64,000 nt of DNA from Tetragenococcus osmophilus (GTDB lineage: Bacteria; Bacillota; Bacilli; Lactobacillales; Enterococcaceae): contig NZ_CP027783.1 of NCBI RefSeq assembly GCF_003795125.1, forward strand, positions 1,860,001 to 1,924,000. Direction: 5' to 3'. Below, one piece after another: positions 41,239 through 64,000 of this stretch (position 1 is its first letter; every line of letters starts with the position of its first letter). The notes beneath the pieces were generated by a model. The model was not told where the DNA came from. It searched no databases and worked only from the letters and a program-made list of their open reading frames with translations. A program made the translations under genes and the position numbers.

Positions 41239-43233
41239 TTGTTTGATGAGATTGACGAACTAGGCGTTAATACGTTGCGAACATTAAGTATTGATGCTGT
41301 TCAAAGCGCGAACTCAGGGCACCCAGGTTTACCTTTAGGGGCAGCCCCTATGGCTTATGCTTTGTGGACGAAGTTTATGAAAGTTAACCCAAAAACTTCG
41401 AGAAATTGGATTGACCGTGACCGCTTTGTTTTGTCAGCTGGACATGGCTCGGCCTTATTGTACAGCTTGTTACGTTGTTCCGGTTACAATGTTTCCATGG
41501 AAGATTTAAAAAATTTCCGTCAATGGGAGGGCCATACGCCTGGTCACCCAGAAGTTGGAGAAATTGATGGCGTAGAAGCAACGACAGGACCTTTAGGCCA
41601 AGGTTTAGCTATGGCTGTCGGTATGGCTATGACAGAAGCGCATTTAGCGGCGCAATATAATAAAAAAGATTTTCCTATTATTGATCACTATACGTACGCT
41701 TTAGCTGGTGATGGTGATTTAATGGAAGGCGTTTCGCAAGAAGCTTCTTCTTTAGCCGGACATTTACAATTAGGCAAGTTGATTGTCTTTTATGATTCCA
41801 ACGATGTTTCTTTAGATGGCCCTACGGCTAAAGCGTTTACCGAAAATGTAGGCAAACGCTATGAAGCTTACGGATGGCAGTATTTATATGTCGAAGATGG
41901 CACAGACATGGAGGCTATTGCCAATGCCATTGAAGAAGCGAAACAAAATACGTCGCAACCGACATTTATCGAAGTAAAAACGGTGATTGGCTTAGGTTCA
42001 CCTAAAGAAGGAACGTCAGCCGTTCACGGGGCTGCTTTAGGTGAAGAAGGCGTGACAGCGGCGAAAGCCTTCTTTGGCTGGGATTTCCCAGAGTTTACTG
42101 TACCTGAAGAAGCGGCCCAACGATTTAAAGAAACGATGATCGATCAAGGCGAACAAGCTGAGGCAGAGTGGAACGATTTATTTGCCGCTTATGAAAAAAG
42201 TTATCCTGAAGAAGCGGAACAATTGAAGAAAGCTTTTGCCGGAGAGTTGCCTGAAGGCTGGGAAGAAAACTTACCAAAATATGAAGTCGGGGATGAATTG
42301 GCAAGTCGGAAATCTAGTCAAGAGATCATTCAAGAAATTTCAAAAGCGGTGCCTTCTTTCTGGGGCGGTTCTGCTGATCTATCTTCTTCCAATAACACGA
42401 TGGTATCTGAAGATAAAGATTTTGCTGTTGATCAATATGATGGACGTAATATTTGGTTTGGTGTCCGCGAATTTGCGATGGTGGCGATTATGAACGGCAT
42501 CCAATTACATGGCGGTTCGAAAATCTACGGAGGCACTTTCTTTGTCTTTAGTGATTATTGCCGTCCTGCTTTACGTCTAGCAGCCATTCAACACTTACCT
42601 GTGACTTATGTGTTCACTCATGATTCGATCGCTGTTGGAGAAGACGGTCCGACGCATGAGCCTGTAGAACAATTGGCTAGTTTACGTGCTATGCCGAATA
42701 TGAGTGTGATTCGTCCCGCAGATGGTAATGAAACCCGTGCTGCTTGGAAATTAGCGATGCAAGCTCAAAGCCATCCAACGATGTTAGTGTTAAGCCGTCA
42801 AGGTCTTCCAACTTTAGCAGGAACAACGGAAAATGTGGAAGAAAACGTAGCTAAGGGTGGATATGTCATTTCTTCGCAAAAAGGAAATAAACCGGATGGT
42901 ATTTTACTTGCGACCGGTTCTGAGGTTCATTTAGCTGTGGAAGCCCAAGAACAATTAGCTAATGACGATATTGATGTTTCTGTGGTTTCTTTACCAAGTT
43001 TTGACCGATTTGAACAACAAAGTGAAGCTTATAAAGAATCGGTATTACCAAGTGGGGTAACAAAACGCTTAGGGATTGAAGCAGGGGCTTCCTTTGGTTG
43101 GCATAAATACGTTAAAGATGATGGCGCATTATTAACGATTGATCGCTTCGGCGCATCAGCTCCAGGAGGCAGAGTCTTAGAAGAATACGGCTTTACCGCA
43201 AATAATGTAGTATCTATTTTTAAAACAATGTGA
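41239..43233 (+). CDS. tkt: Transketolase
   Basis: 664-residue thiamine-diphosphate enzyme of the pentose phosphate pathway that moves two-carbon units between sugar phosphates. It has NSGHPGLPLGAAPMAY, HGSALLYSLL, the ThDP motif GDGDLMEGVSQEA...N, and the pyrimidine domain with FGVREFAMVAIMNGI and THDSIAVGEDGPTHEP. Start TTG at 41239 with GGAGG 8 nt upstream. Codon use looks more biased than in neighbouring genes, as for a highly expressed enzyme. lexA-ynzC-tkt order matches Bacillus. Confidence 0.96.
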   Translation: MFDEIDELGVNTLRTLSIDAVQSANSGHPGLPLGAAPMAYALWTKFMKVNPKTSRNWIDRDRFVLSAGHGSALLYSLLRCSGYNVSMEDLKNFRQWEGHTPGHPEVGEIDGVEATTGPLGQGLAMAVGMAMTEAHLAAQYNKKDFPIIDHYTYALAGDGDLMEGVSQEASSLAGHLQLGKLIVFYDSNDVSLDGPTAKAFTENVGKRYEAYGWQYLYVEDGTDMEAIANAIEEAKQNTSQPTFIEVKTVIGLGSPKEGTSAVHGAALGEEGVTAAKAFFGWDFPEFTVPEEAAQRFKETMIDQGEQAEAEWNDLFAAYEKSYPEEAEQLKKAFAGELPEGWEENLPKYEVGDELASRKSSQEIIQEISKAVPSFWGGSADLSSSNNTMVSEDKDFAVDQYDGRNIWFGVREFAMVAIMNGIQLHGGSKIYGGTFFVFSDYCRPALRLAAIQHLPVTYVFTHDSIAVGEDGPTHEPVEQLASLRAMPNMSVIRPADGNETRAAWKLAMQAQSHPTMLVLSRQGLPTLAGTTENVEENVAKGGYVISSQKGNKPDGILLATGSEVHLAVEAQEQLANDDIDVSVVSLPSFDRFEQQSEAYKESVLPSGVTKRLGIEAGASFGWHKYVKDDGALLTIDRFGASAPGGRVLEEYGFTANNVVSIFKTM

Positions 43234-43243
43234 AAGTTAAACA

Positions 43244-43294
43244 AAAAAGAAGTATGGAGCTAGTTTTATTAACAGCTTCATACTTCTTTTTTTT
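43244..43294 (+). terminator. Terminator after tkt
   Basis: AGAAGTATGGAGC / GCTTCATACTTCT stem with a long T-run. Confidence 0.85.
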
Positions 43295-43398
43295 AGACTA
43301 TTTAAAATCTTTTAAAAGACTTTTGCTGTTGTATCAAAGATTCTTATGATGATAGGAAAGACTTTTAAAAGAAATTAAGTAAAAGATATTGTTTTATT

Positions 43399-45078
43399 CC
43401 TGAATGATTTATAAATTTTTCCAAGAATGATTTAATCCTTGGTATGCTCATTTTTCTAAAAGTTTAGTTGCTTCACCTTCTGGGTGTACAAAAAGAACGC
43501 ACTTCGTGTTATTGTAAAGTCGACAAAACATAACAATAAGGAGTGCGTTCTTATGTCTTTCACTTTACAACAAAAACCATTAATATTCAATTCTCAAAAG
43601 AAAATTTCTATCACCAATGATGGGGGCGCCTTAACCAATGATGCCGGAATGGTACTGGTTGCCGAATTTTTAAAGAAGATTCATTTTGATCAGTTATTAA
43701 ATGAACGGATTCATATCAACGATCACCGCAAATTTTCGCACCATTCCTGGCTAGAAATCTTGAAACAATGGCTTTATCAATTGATTGCGGGATATTCACG
43801 CGATCGAGATGCCAATAAAGTGCAATACGATCGCCTCTTTCAAGAAGCACTTCAACAAGAAAACCTTAGTTCGCAATCCATGCTTTCGACCTTTCTGCAT
43901 ACATTAACGACAGAAAATGTGTCGCAACTTGCGCAAGTAGCCAAAGACTTAGCGGATCTATGGTTGGACCATGACAATACACAACACTTGGTGCTCGATT
44001 TTGATTCCACATCTTGTCCCACCTACGGTAAACAAGAAAAAGCCGAGTTTATCTATCACTATGGTATCAATGGCTATCATCCGTTTGTCGCTTTTGAAGG
44101 ATTAACCGGGCTTGCTTTAGATGTTCGCCATCGTCACGGAAAATCCTATACGTCTACCCATGCCGAAGATTATCTCGAGGAGATGTTAGATCGTTATCAA
44201 CAGCGATCCAGTGATCCTCTGATCATGGTTCGTGGAGATAGCGGATTTGCCAAGCCCGAAATTTTTGCCCATTGCGAAGACCGTCAAGTCCGTTATGTGA
44301 TCAAACTCAAAAGCAACGCCCGTTTGCTCGACCACATTCAACATCAAGTCCTTTATCAAGACGACACCGATTATACGAAAACCGAACAACAATATTTTCT
44401 AATGGACTATCGGGCGAATAAATGGCGACAATCACGTCGAGTCGCCATGAAAGCCACTCGTCCTGCCGGATCCTTACTCTTTACCGATTTTCAGTTTATC
44501 GTTACAAACTTTGAGAATCTCGATCCCAAGACGATTTTTCAACTCTATCAAAAACGAGGGAACATGGAAAACTTCATTAAAGAAATGAAAGGCGGCTTCT
44601 TTGCCGAAAAAACAGATAGCGCTTCGTTTACAGCCAATCAAGCGCGTTTAGCCTTAAGCTTTATGGCTTACAACATCATTCATTTGATGAAGCATCTAAC
44701 CTTTCCTTCGACAGAAAAAGCGACAGTGATCGATACCATCCGTTTTAAACTGTTTCATCTAGCAGGCAGAATGACGGAACATGCACGACAAATCCAGATC
44801 CATCTTTCGAATACGAATGTTTATGACACTTTATTCTGGGACGTTTTGGCCAGAATCCAGCGGCTGAATCTATAAAAATGAGAACAAAAGAAGAAAAAAC
44901 AGCGCCTTGATTTTCGCCTTAAAGACTTTCTAGGAAGAAGTATGTTTATTTTTAGGCATAGAAAGCTGTCCAGCACCGTCATCTGCCAAAAAAAGGCAAA
45001 AAAAAGATTCAATAACATCAAAAAGGCTCTTTCATTCGGGACGAAAGTTATCCACAAGCTTTTTAGAAATCATTCAGG
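43399..45078 (+). mobile_element. IS1380-family insertion sequence, complete copy
   Basis: 1680 bp. Ends are inverted repeats: left CCTGAATGATTTATAAA, right (complement) CCTGAATGATTTCTAAA. It is flanked on both sides by TTATT (43394-43398 and 45079-45083), a 5-bp target duplication. One intact transposase gene. A second copy in opposite orientation begins at 62866; the shared right end confirms the boundary. About 150 nt at each end are non-coding. Confidence 0.9.
43553..44875 (+). CDS. IS1380-family transposase
   Basis: 440-residue DDE transposase. The N-terminal part has SITNDGGALTNDAGMVLVAEFL, typical of the family; the first catalytic Asp is in HLVLDFDSTSCPTYG, the second probably in MVRGDSGFAKPEIF, and the Glu in GNMENFIKEMKGGF. 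I chose the ATG at 43553, 8 nt after AAGGAG. Intact and so probably active. It differs from the copy at 63069 by at least one residue (Ala versus Thr in TDS[A/T]SFTANQ). Confidence 0.92.
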   Translation: MSFTLQQKPLIFNSQKKISITNDGGALTNDAGMVLVAEFLKKIHFDQLLNERIHINDHRKFSHHSWLEILKQWLYQLIAGYSRDRDANKVQYDRLFQEALQQENLSSQSMLSTFLHTLTTENVSQLAQVAKDLADLWLDHDNTQHLVLDFDSTSCPTYGKQEKAEFIYHYGINGYHPFVAFEGLTGLALDVRHRHGKSYTSTHAEDYLEEMLDRYQQRSSDPLIMVRGDSGFAKPEIFAHCEDRQVRYVIKLKSNARLLDHIQHQVLYQDDTDYTKTEQQYFLMDYRANKWRQSRRVAMKATRPAGSLLFTDFQFIVTNFENLDPKTIFQLYQKRGNMENFIKEMKGGFFAEKTDSASFTANQARLALSFMAYNIIHLMKHLTFPSTEKATVIDTIRFKLFHLAGRMTEHARQIQIHLSNTNVYDTLFWDVLARIQRLNL

Positions 45079-45166
45079 TTATTTAATTTTTTAGCATACA
45101 ATAATTTTTATAGAATTCTTAATTTTCTTACTAAAGTTTTTTAAAAGTCTTTTGAAGGAGGATGTT

Positions 45167-46051
45167 ATGGTTTACCAAACACGAAGTGCTCGTCACCAGA
45201 AAAAAGCAACGCTTAATAAGAAATTCAACAAGAAAACGGTGCTATCTCTTGTAGGTACAGGTTTAGTTCTTGCTCCAACGACAACAGTTTTGTTTCCGCA
45301 AGAAAGTCATGCTGAACAATATCAAGTGTCAGAATCAGAAGCTTCTAATTTGATCAGTCAAATTAGTTCTTCAGCACAGCAAATTGCAGATAGTAATGAC
45401 TTATATGCTTCAGTTATGATTGCTCAAGCAATATTAGAAAGTGGAAATGGCAGCTCGTCACTTTCTTCTTCGCCTACACATAATCTCTTTGGAGTGAAAG
45501 CCTATGGTCAGGAACCTTCCGTTTGGTTATCTACACAAGAGTACATTGATGGGGAATATGAAACCATGAAGGAGCCCTTTAGAATTTATGACTCTTATGA
45601 AGAGTCTTTACAGGACCATGCAGCTCTTTTGAAAAGTTCAAGTTATTCTTCTGGCACACCTCATTATCAAGGAGCGTGGAAAAGCCAAACAACAGATTAC
45701 ACAGATGCTACAGCTTTTCTTACGGGAAGGTATGCTACTGATCCTGATTATGGGCAAAAACTTAATTCCTTAATTGAAAGCTATAATTTAACGCAATTTG
45801 ACACTCCGGCTCAATCAAATGATTTTTCTGAACCTCAAACAGATTACGATACAACTGAAAGTACTTCAAATGAAGAAGTAGAAGGGGAAGAAACGACAAC
45901 TACTAATGAGACAAGTTCAACTTATACTGTTCAACAAGGGGACACCTTATGGGATATCGCGCAAAACCATGGAATAAGCTTAGATGAATTAATGGCAAAT
46001 AACGGGTTAAGTAGCGGTTCAGTTAGTATTGGACAACAATTAGTCGTTTAA
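45167..46051 (+). CDS. Secreted N-acetylglucosaminidase (GH73) with LysM domain
   Basis: 294-residue autolysin-type enzyme. The N-terminus is a signal peptide (basic start, hydrophobic VLSLVGTGLVLAPTTTVLF, likely cleavage after SHA). Residues about 45-210 are the GH73 domain with the catalytic Glu in IAQAILESGNG and THNLFGVKAYG; a Thr/Glu linker follows and a LysM wall-binding domain ends the protein (TYTVQQGDTLWDIAQNHGISLDELMANNGL). It likely cuts glycan strands during growth or cell separation. ATG at 45167 follows AAGGAGG. Its promoter seems interrupted by an IS1380 copy. Confidence 0.9.
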   Translation: MVYQTRSARHQKKATLNKKFNKKTVLSLVGTGLVLAPTTTVLFPQESHAEQYQVSESEASNLISQISSSAQQIADSNDLYASVMIAQAILESGNGSSSLSSSPTHNLFGVKAYGQEPSVWLSTQEYIDGEYETMKEPFRIYDSYEESLQDHAALLKSSSYSSGTPHYQGAWKSQTTDYTDATAFLTGRYATDPDYGQKLNSLIESYNLTQFDTPAQSNDFSEPQTDYDTTESTSNEEVEGEETTTTNETSSTYTVQQGDTLWDIAQNHGISLDELMANNGLSSGSVSIGQQLVV

Positions 46052-47403: not shown

Positions 47404-47486
47404 ACCATAAAAAAGAGGAAAAGTCTATGATGAACCGACCCCCAAAATTTAGACCCAAAATCTAACTTTTGGAGGTCGGTATTTTT

Positions 47487-48062
47487 ATGGCTAAATATCA
47501 TTTTGAATTCAAATGGAAAATCGTTCAAGAATACTTAGAGGGCAAAGGTGGATATAGCTATCTAGCCAAGAAGTATTCCGTCAAAAATAAGAAACAAATA
47601 GAAAATTGGGTAAAGGCCTATGAGGAACTCGGTGAAGAAGGGCTTTTCCGTAAACGGCAAAATCAGAGTTATTCTGTTCAATTTAAGCTAGATGCGGTAG
47701 AATTATATCAAACAAGTGAGCTGTCCTATCGTGAAGTTGCCAATAAGCTTGAAATGAACAACCCTGCGTTGCTTGCCAATTGGATGCGGAAATTTCGAGA
47801 TCATGGCGTCGATGGACTCTCAAAAACGAAAGGACGTCCATCTGCCATGCCTCAGAAAAAGCCAAAGAGAGAGCCAGCATCTGTCAAAACCACTCTAGAA
47901 GAACAAGACCGTATGAAGGCATTAGAGAAGCAAGTTCGTTCGCTCCAGATTGAAAATGCCTTTTTAAAAGAATTGAGGAAGCTGCGAAAACAGGAAGCCC
48001 AACAAAGACGAACGAATCAATCGCACGAATCATCGCAAGCCTCCGAGGATCATTCAAATTAG
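47487..48062 (+). CDS. IS150-group transposase OrfA
   Basis: 191-residue DNA-binding half of the transposase. Two helix-turn-helix units are visible (YLEGKGGYSYLAKKYSVKNKKQIENWVKAY and DAVELYQTSELSYREVANKLEMNNPALLANWMRKF), then a basic linker and a leucine-zipper coil (MKALEKQVRSLQIENAFLKELRKL). Start 47487 follows GGAGG by about 11 nt. OrfB lies in the -1 frame, so a fused OrfAB would need -1 slippage, perhaps near GCGAAAACAGG around 47982. Confidence 0.88.
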   Translation: MAKYHFEFKWKIVQEYLEGKGGYSYLAKKYSVKNKKQIENWVKAYEELGEEGLFRKRQNQSYSVQFKLDAVELYQTSELSYREVANKLEMNNPALLANWMRKFRDHGVDGLSKTKGRPSAMPQKKPKREPASVKTTLEEQDRMKALEKQVRSLQIENAFLKELRKLRKQEAQQRRTNQSHESSQASEDHSN

Positions 48063-48079
48063 TTGAGCTTCTTGAAACA

Positions 48080-48906
48080 TTGAACTTTCCAAAGGCAACC
48101 TTTATGTACTGGCAAAAACGGTTTGATCGAAAAAATCCGGATCAGGAAATCGAAGAAGAAATGGCTACGATTCGGAAAAAACACAAAGATTACGGTTGTT
48201 TGCGAATGACCCAAGAGCTTAAAAACCGTGGGTTCCATGTCAATAAAAAGAAAGTACAGCGCTTGATTCGAAAGTTGGGACTTGAAGTCCGAACTTATAC
48301 CCGGAAATCTCGTCGTTATAGTTCTTATAAAGGAAAAGTTGGAACGGTTGCGAAGAATCGAATCCACCGTCGCTTTTACACCAGTATTTGTCATCAAAAA
48401 ATGACAACAGACACCACAGAATTCAAGTATTTTGCCTTAGACACCAACGGCGTGATCCGACAAAGAAAGCTGTATTTGGATCCGTTTATGGATTTGTATA
48501 ACAGCGAGATCCTTTCTTACCGTATTTCAGAAAAGCCCAATGCCATGGCCATCATGGAAGGGTTGGAAGAAGCTATTGAAATCACCAATGATTGTCTCTA
48601 TCGTCGCACCTTTCATTCCGACCAAGGATGGGCTTATCAAATGAACGCATATACACATAAACTAAAGAAACACAAAATCTTTCAAAGTATGTCTCGAAAG
48701 GCCAACTGTTTGGATAATGCCATCATGGAGACCTTTTTCAGTCTGTTAAAGCAAGAAGTCTTTCATGGAGAAATTTATCATGGTTTTGAAGAGCTGAAAG
48801 CGGCAATTGACGACTATATCTATTACTACAATAATGAACGAATGAAACAAAATTGAATTGGAAGAGCCCTGTTCAATTTCGGAAAGCAGAGCTAAAAGCG
48901 GTCTAA
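48080..48906 (+). pseudogene. IS150-group transposase OrfB, frameshifted near its end
   Basis: Catalytic half with the DDE core: TTDTTEFKYFALDTNG (first Asp), FHSDQGWAYQ (second Asp) and CLDNAIMETFFSLLKQE (Glu). The frame stays open upstream into orfA, as expected for a -1 fusion. The reading frame stops at 48856 (YYNNERMKQN); restoring one A in the run at 48849-48852 would give KQKLNWKSPVQFRKAELKAV and a stop at 48904, which is the normal family ending. The Shine-Dalgarno-independent TTG at 48080 is only the first possible start. One-base loss could also be a sequencing error. Confidence 0.8.
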
Positions 48907-62789: not shown

Positions 62790-62865
62790 ATATATGCAAG
62801 TAAGAAGTTTATCACTTATAGAATCATGAATTTGAAATTTTATAAATATATGAAAAGAGGATTAT

Positions 62866-64000
62866 CCTGAATGATTTCTAAAAAGCTTGTGGATAACTTT
62901 CGTCCCGAATGAAAGAGCCTTTTTGATGTTATTGAATCTTTTTTTTGCCTTTTTTTGGCAGATGACGGTGCTGGACAGCTTTCTATGCCTAAAAATAAAC
63001 ATACTTCTTCCTAGAAAGTCTTTAAGGCGAAAATCAAGGCGCTGTTTTTTCTTCTTTTGTTCTCATTTTTATAGATTCAGCCGCTGGATTCTGGCCAAAA
63101 CGTCCCAGAATAAAGTGTCATAAACATTCGTATTCGAAAGATGGATCTGGATTTGTCGTGCATGTTCCGTCATTCTGCCTGCTAGATGAAACAGTTTAAA
63201 ACGGATGGTATCGATCACTGTCGCTTTTTCTGTCGAAGGAAAGGTTAGATGCTTCATCAAATGAATGATGTTGTAAGCCATAAAGCTTAAGGCTAAACGC
63301 GCTTGATTGGCTGTAAACGAAGTGCTATCTGTTTTTTCGGCAAAGAAGCCGCCTTTCATTTCTTTAATGAAGTTTTCCATGTTCCCTCGTTTTTGATAGA
63401 GTTGAAAAATCGTCTTGGGATCGAGATTCTCAAAGTTTGTAACGATAAACTGAAAATCGGTAAAGAGTAAGGATCCGGCAGGACGAGTGGCTTTCATGGC
63501 GACTCGACGTGATTGTCGCCATTTATTCGCCCGATAGTCCATTAGAAAATATTGTTGTTCGGTTTTCGTATAATCGGTGTCGTCTTGATAAAGGACTTGA
63601 TGTTGAATGTGGTCGAGCAAACGGGCGTTGCTTTTGAGTTTGATCACATAACGGACTTGACGGTCTTCGCAATGGGCAAAAATTTCGGGCTTGGCAAATC
63701 CGCTATCTCCACGAACCATGATCAGAGGATCACTGGATCGCTGTTGATAACGATCTAACATCTCCTCGAGATAATCTTCGGCATGGGTAGACGTATAGGA
63801 TTTTCCGTGACGATGGCGAACATCTAAAGCAAGCCCGGTTAATCCTTCAAAAGCGACAAACGGATGATAGCCATTGATACCATAGTGATAGATAAACTCG
63901 GCTTTTTCTTGTTTACCGTAGGTGGGACAAGATGTGGAATCAAAATCGAGCACCAAGTGTTGTGTATTGTCATGGTCCAACCATAGATCCGCTAAGTCTT
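62866..64000 (-). mobile_element. IS1380-family insertion sequence, second copy (cut by window end)
   Basis: Begins with CCTGAATGATTTCTAAA, identical to the right end of the copy at 43399-45078, and continues as its reverse complement to the window edge. The 5 bp before it are ATTAT. The other end lies outside, so the target duplication cannot be checked. Confidence 0.92.
63069..64000 (-). CDS. IS1380-family transposase (partial at window end)
   Basis: C-terminal ~310 residues of the same transposase as at 43553-44875, on the opposite strand; the start lies beyond base 64000. The frame is open to the last base. It contains the catalytic HLVLDFDSTSC, MVRGDSGF and GNMENFIKEMKGG segments. One residue differs from the other copy (Thr for Ala in TDSTSF), so the two copies have diverged very little. 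Confidence 0.9.
   Translation of the reverse strand, partial: DLADLWLDHDNTQHLVLDFDSTSCPTYGKQEKAEFIYHYGINGYHPFVAFEGLTGLALDVRHRHGKSYTSTHAEDYLEEMLDRYQQRSSDPLIMVRGDSGFAKPEIFAHCEDRQVRYVIKLKSNARLLDHIQHQVLYQDDTDYTKTEQQYFLMDYRANKWRQSRRVAMKATRPAGSLLFTDFQFIVTNFENLDPKTIFQLYQKRGNMENFIKEMKGGFFAEKTDSTSFTANQARLALSFMAYNIIHLMKHLTFPSTEKATVIDTIRFKLFHLAGRMTEHARQIQIHLSNTNVYDTLFWDVLARIQRLNL

Follow-up and report, generated by a model that had tools for sequence, protein, structure and literature searches.

Insertion sequences (IS) that create or break promoters, sometimes by forming a fusion promoter, are documented in a review of such events (PMC9330008). The fusion promoters described there share with the locus reported here an IS end lying beside promoter elements, with a potential new −35 for a host −10. 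The cases treated there are gains of drug resistance, whereas the present insertion divides a conserved promoter on the chromosome, with no known selected trait. ISEcp1 and ISPme1 belong to the same transposase family as our element and, like it, turn their 3′ end towards a neighbouring gene; according to the same review they possess complete outward promoters, whereas the tail of our element has none above shuffle level. In soy-sauce Tetragenococcus, moreover, traits are known to change through IS movement, as with the ISTeha elements (PMC10269466, PMC9045211). An IS splitting a promoter is a known kind of event and this particular instance is new: a literature search by title and abstract opening (IS1380 and autolysin promoters, the mraZ palindrome, Tetragenococcus) returned no match for this insertion.

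The gene downstream of the insertion encodes a GH73 protein of 294 aa with one LysM; membership follows from its Pfam Glucosaminidase domain and the enzymatic activity is predicted. Residues 59–217 match chain 7qfu ("Peptidoglycan hydrolase", E 4e-54), the closest among solved structures, which we take to be the catalytic domain of Enterococcus faecalis AtlA. T. muriaticus is nearest, with 90% identity in the glucosaminidase. CseA of T. halophilus, described by Shirakawa in 2020, is likewise a putative N-acetylglucosaminidase of this genus and is said to act in daughter-cell separation. AtlA, with which the protein shares the GH73 domain, is an N-acetylglucosaminidase of E. faecalis (PMC9108991, PMC10113225).

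We analysed a window of 64,000 nucleotides, the whole stretch under study, from a genome of 2.38 Mb in three contigs (Table 1). The initial annotation reported a complete IS1380 copy flanked by TTATT, and this was confirmed base for base. The element is 1,680 bp long by sequence reading and comparison of genomic copies, and it has the transposase, the terminal inverted repeats (43399–43415 and 45062–45078; 17 nt, 94% complementary) and the length of about 1.7 kb that define the family. IS1380 target duplications are 4–5 bp; by our own reading the four copies of the element have duplications of 5 (TTATT), 5, 5 and 6 bp, only the last exceeding this range. The last T of the −35 hexamer TTGTTT (43394) is also the first T of the left TTATT, and the element together with one TTATT makes an inserted length of 1,685 bp.

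Table 1. Features of the split promoter region and its surroundings, in window coordinates.
Feature	Coordinates	Strand	Evidence
Transketolase gene (tkt), upstream	41239-43233	+	TIGR00232, 936 bits
Terminator-like hairpin of transketolase with T run, upstream of the entire region	43247-43295	+	within inverted repeat I1; sequence
Palindrome copy 1, severed from the gene by the insertion	43306-43321	.	motif match, 15/16 to AGTCTTTTAAAAGACT
Palindrome copy 2, severed from the gene by the insertion	43359-43374	.	motif match, 13/16
Native −35, TTGTTT	43389-43394	+	invariant in own genome and 7 congeners
Left target-site duplication, TTATT	43394-43398	+	sequence, copy comparison
IS1380-family element	43399-45078	+	four full-length genomic copies; ends via copy comparison
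Hairpin covering the transposase ribosome-binding site	43493-43552	+	inverted repeat I5, 21-nt arms; fold
Transposase, 440 aa	43553-44875	+	NF033539 transpos_IS1380, 356 bits (cut-off 180 bits); Pfam DDE_Tnp_1_4
TTATCCACA beside the right inverted repeat	45048-45056	+	sequence
TTCAGG, element tip, candidate new −35, 18 bp from TACAAT	45073-45078	+	matrix score
Right target-site duplication, TTATT	45079-45083	+	sequence, copy comparison
Native −10, TACAAT	45097-45102	+	invariant in own genome and 7 congeners
Conserved block near the expected transcription start; TTATAG and TCTTAA invariant in own genome and 7 congeners	45108-45127	+	alignment
Palindrome copy 3, directly before the ribosome-binding site	45135-45150	.	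14/16; aligned in 9/9 Tetragenococcus sequences
Glucosaminidase, GH73 and one LysM, 294 aa	45167-46051	+	PF01832 (Pfam Glucosaminidase), 112 bits; LysM, 57 bits

Four full-length copies of the element are present in this genome; one other copy is identical to that in the window, and the remaining two differ from it by one base, the same in both. There are 11 further copies of a related IS of about 74% identity; the element itself is found at 96% in T. halophilus DSM 20339, in at least 3 copies. The near-identical copies suggest recent transposition activity and, with the presence of the element in T. halophilus DSM 20339, indicate a recently mobile resident of the genus. Another of its copies runs into the window across the right end (62863–64000, opposite strand), and shortly downstream of the glucosaminidase gene two adjoining frames (47469–48856) resemble by eye an IS3-type orfA/orfB pair. 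The TTATCCACA near the right end, presumably a DnaA box, occurs in 6 of 9 other IS1380 copies and TTATCCCCA in the remaining 3, the tail being otherwise diverged. Its retention may hint at a role of host DnaA in transposition; a literature search for IS1380 together with a DnaA box found no paper.

Removal of the element and one TTATT joins TTGTTT and TACAAT at a spacing of exactly 17 nt, with 65 nt from the end of TACAAT to the glucosaminidase ATG (45167), just as initially annotated. A terminator-like hairpin stands between tkt and this promoter region. The comparison was made between species, one genome per species, and comprised our genome and 8 other Tetragenococcus genomes, among them T. 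muriaticus DSM 15685, T. halophilus DSM 20339, T. halophilus subsp. flandriensis NBRC 114546, T. solitarius NBRC 100494 and a Tetragenococcus MAG (G008). In all 8 congeners the region upstream of the orthologue aligns through the end of the transketolase gene. The presence of the uninterrupted arrangement in relatives was a check set in advance, and at genus level it was passed: exact TTGTTT-N17-TACAAT is found in 7/8 congeners and the element at this site in 0/8. The −35 and −10 of a sigma-A (sigma-70) promoter, with a spacer inside the 16–18 bp range, are therefore kept exactly in those seven. In the eighth (G006) the promoter has diverged, with TTTACA-17-TAAACT at nearly the same place by our own reading. 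Beyond the genus, one genome (L064) of a neighbouring genus retains TTGTTT-17-TACAAT by eye, and the gene order transketolase, glucosaminidase, Fur-family gene extends across the family (tkt at 18/21 loci, fur at 20/21).

Because its promoter has diverged, G006 was excluded from the count of invariant columns. Our genome and the other 7 agree completely at 70 of 235 intergenic columns, including all 12 hexamer columns. Column shuffles reached this conservation in 0 of 100,000 trials (probability about 5e-7), a value that is optimistic since shuffling ignores the clustering of conserved columns; the hexamers, however, had been named beforehand. Apart from TTGTTT/TACAAT, no hexamer pair spaced by 17 bp is fully invariant in this set; the pair TGTTTT and TACAAT at 16 bp is the same one shifted by a base, and at 15, 18 and 19 bp there are none. 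In these genomes the block TTATAG...TCTTAA, just after the −10, equals the promoter hexamers in conservation. Since related species keep it intact, the split promoter appears clearly real. The intact arrangement is shown to be ancestral in the genus, and both the insertion and its exact place are established.

Consensus strength gives a different picture from conservation. The scores come from a standard sigma-70 matrix of E. coli type, and native, fusion and shuffled values lie close together. The initial annotation regarded TTGTTT...TACAAT as a good promoter, a description that the matrix does not bear out: the native −35 scores 1.52 bits and the whole promoter 6.42. Two other upstream matches in the joined site score higher (7.73 and 6.96) and 57% of dinucleotide shuffles reach the joined-region score, so that by this measure the promoter does not rise above its A/T-rich background. 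A strict promoter scan of the occupied region returned 0 sites. At the level of sequence, the case for the promoter is conservation rather than consensus strength. The new −35 had been judged a poor match, which holds for TCAGGT at 17 bp (−4.53) but is not supported for TTCAGG at the element tip, which at 18 bp scores 1.29 bits and gives a whole fusion promoter of 5.69; this best of three spacings is equalled by 24% of random sequence.

The transposase and glucosaminidase genes share orientation, and we found no terminator-like site after the transposase gene (44800–45200) and none between the two genes, so that transposase transcripts could run into the glucosaminidase gene. Fusion promoter and read-through are both possible. 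We consider it probable, with real room for doubt, that the insertion into the conserved promoter leaves expression reduced and deregulated. In this account a recent IS1380-family transposition inserted 1,685 bp and thereby parted the −35 of the gene's single conserved promoter from its −10. The native −35, the A/T-rich stretch and its two palindromes, displaced from the −10 by this distance, would be unusable by RNA polymerase, and native level and control would then be lost because these sequences are out of its reach. Weak transcription would persist through the fusion promoter (TTCAGG, 18 bp, TACAAT), through read-through or through both, so that expression would most likely be lower and deregulated, not abolished. 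We infer this direction as more likely than silence because the native −35 is itself poor, the tip is nearly its equal and a terminator is absent. A loss is argued from the constraint on native sequence and spacing and from the removal of the upstream stretch. Against this account, the conserved block after the −10, which the insertion has left intact in this allele, might contain a different start; one alternative, TTTTTA-N17-TAGAAT, scores 5.37 and its −10 is absent in four of the seven congeners.

It is possible, though unlikely, that the element has little or no effect, the tip substituting for the −35 so that expression hardly shifts. The small difference between TTCAGG and TTGTTT, and between the totals of fusion and native promoter at an 18-bp spacer, would allow this, and the reading frame is intact; yet TTGTTT and its 17-bp spacing would not be expected to be invariant in eight genomes if the −35 were freely replaceable, and the upstream stretch is lost as well. 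Somewhat less probable still is an increase in expression. Its cause might be transcripts reading through from the transposase gene, an outward promoter that escaped detection, or the loss of palindromes at which a repressor had been holding expression down. Such a reading is consistent with the co-oriented transposase gene without a terminator, with palindromes flanking the promoter on both sides and with the outward promoters of ISEcp1 and ISPme1 in the review cited above (PMC9330008). However, an outward promoter in the tail is unsupported, as the best complete promoter in the 203-nt 3′ non-coding tail scores 4.71 against a shuffle mean of 5.12. The chimeric RNA can also fold its ribosome-binding site onto the element's AATAACATC, a pairing that does not exceed chance (z −0.95). 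That the hexamers are chance A/T matches, with transcription from elsewhere and an irrelevant insertion, is very improbable despite the two higher-scoring upstream matches, since those are never fully invariant pairs as TTGTTT-N17-TACAAT is and a terminator-like hairpin lies between tkt and this stretch. Reduced and deregulated expression from a split promoter is the reading we prefer.

The insertion had also been said to leave the −35 and two CTTTTAAAAG palindromes on its far side. Both cores (within 43306–43321 and 43359–43374) do lie beyond the element; a third, looser copy, which had gone unmentioned, stays with the gene. The CTTTTAAAAG core belongs to a longer, TTTTAAAA-centred palindrome near AGTCTTTTAAAAGACT, which in Tetragenococcus recurs upstream of the glucosaminidase gene, of mraZ and of an nrdH/nrdE-like locus. 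Upstream of mraZ it lies 159–162 nt before the aligned start in 8 of the 9 Tetragenococcus genomes scored (13–16 of 16 positions), with copies varying on both arms across these 8, and the ninth (G008) has a 1-mismatch palindrome at the corresponding position. In our genome 16/16 matches occur only upstream of mraZ (Pfam MraZ) and overlapping the end of an integrase-like frame, and one 15/16 copy lies in a helicase-like frame (the latter two named by reading). Further sites are at L181 1501–1516 and L256 1601–1616. Outside Tetragenococcus the mraZ palindrome occurs in 4/4 genomes of genus g6, 2/2 of g8 and 2/7 of g5, and it is not clear in the 8 genomes scored from g3, g9, g13 and g14.

A similar site precedes the nrdH-like/nrdE-like locus (glutaredoxin and ribonucleotide-reductase domains) in 6/9 genomes. 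The nrdH-like upstream DNA is nearly identical in T. halophilus DSM 20339, T. muriaticus and our genome (L249, L268, L271) and differs in T. halophilus subsp. flandriensis, a pattern that suggests recombination between species.

Across the nine genomes we counted 70 palindrome sites against 15 for a reversed control. This enrichment is mostly discounted because in many of the 39 further stretches the site falls within an open reading frame, where it can often be read as Ser-Leu-Leu-Lys, and the excess is largely coding; at ≤3 mismatches our genome has no enrichment (37 against 34 for the control). Upstream of the glucosaminidase gene the signal is absent from the larger genera g3, g4 and g14. 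The orthologue upstream regions of g4 (L125–L128, L159–L163) have, by eye, TTAC repeats about 11 nt apart and no palindrome; we take these to resemble a WalR site. The palindrome may be merely a weak hairpin or a conserved A/T tract, and we treat it as a lead rather than a result. Tentatively, and with low confidence, it might be an undescribed operator (about AGTCTTTTAAAAGACT) shared with the mraZ division/wall cluster and the nrdH-like/nrdE-like locus, by which expression of the hydrolase would follow growth and division; the element would then remove two of three operators and uncouple one member of the regulon in a natural strain.

Four GH73 paralogues are found elsewhere in our genome. 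A 710-aa frame combines a GH73-LysM match with four additional ones to the LysM region, presumably making it closer to AtlA in build; two others are frames of 396 and 376 aa, and the fourth, of 208 aa, has a stop within the aligned stretch. Because these paralogues remain, one with several LysM stretches, the effect on chaining that had been suggested appears doubtful. In view of these paralogues and of an element tip that is usable, the functional consequence is probably smaller than the initial annotation proposed.

The locus offers a clean natural promoter break whose ancestral state is known from seven relatives; in fermentation, clumping and autolysis are traits that wall hydrolases might influence. 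The palindrome shared with mraZ and the nrdH/nrdE-like locus may matter more than the insertion itself: if it is an operator, septum cleavage would be tied to the division cluster and to DNA-precursor synthesis in this family.
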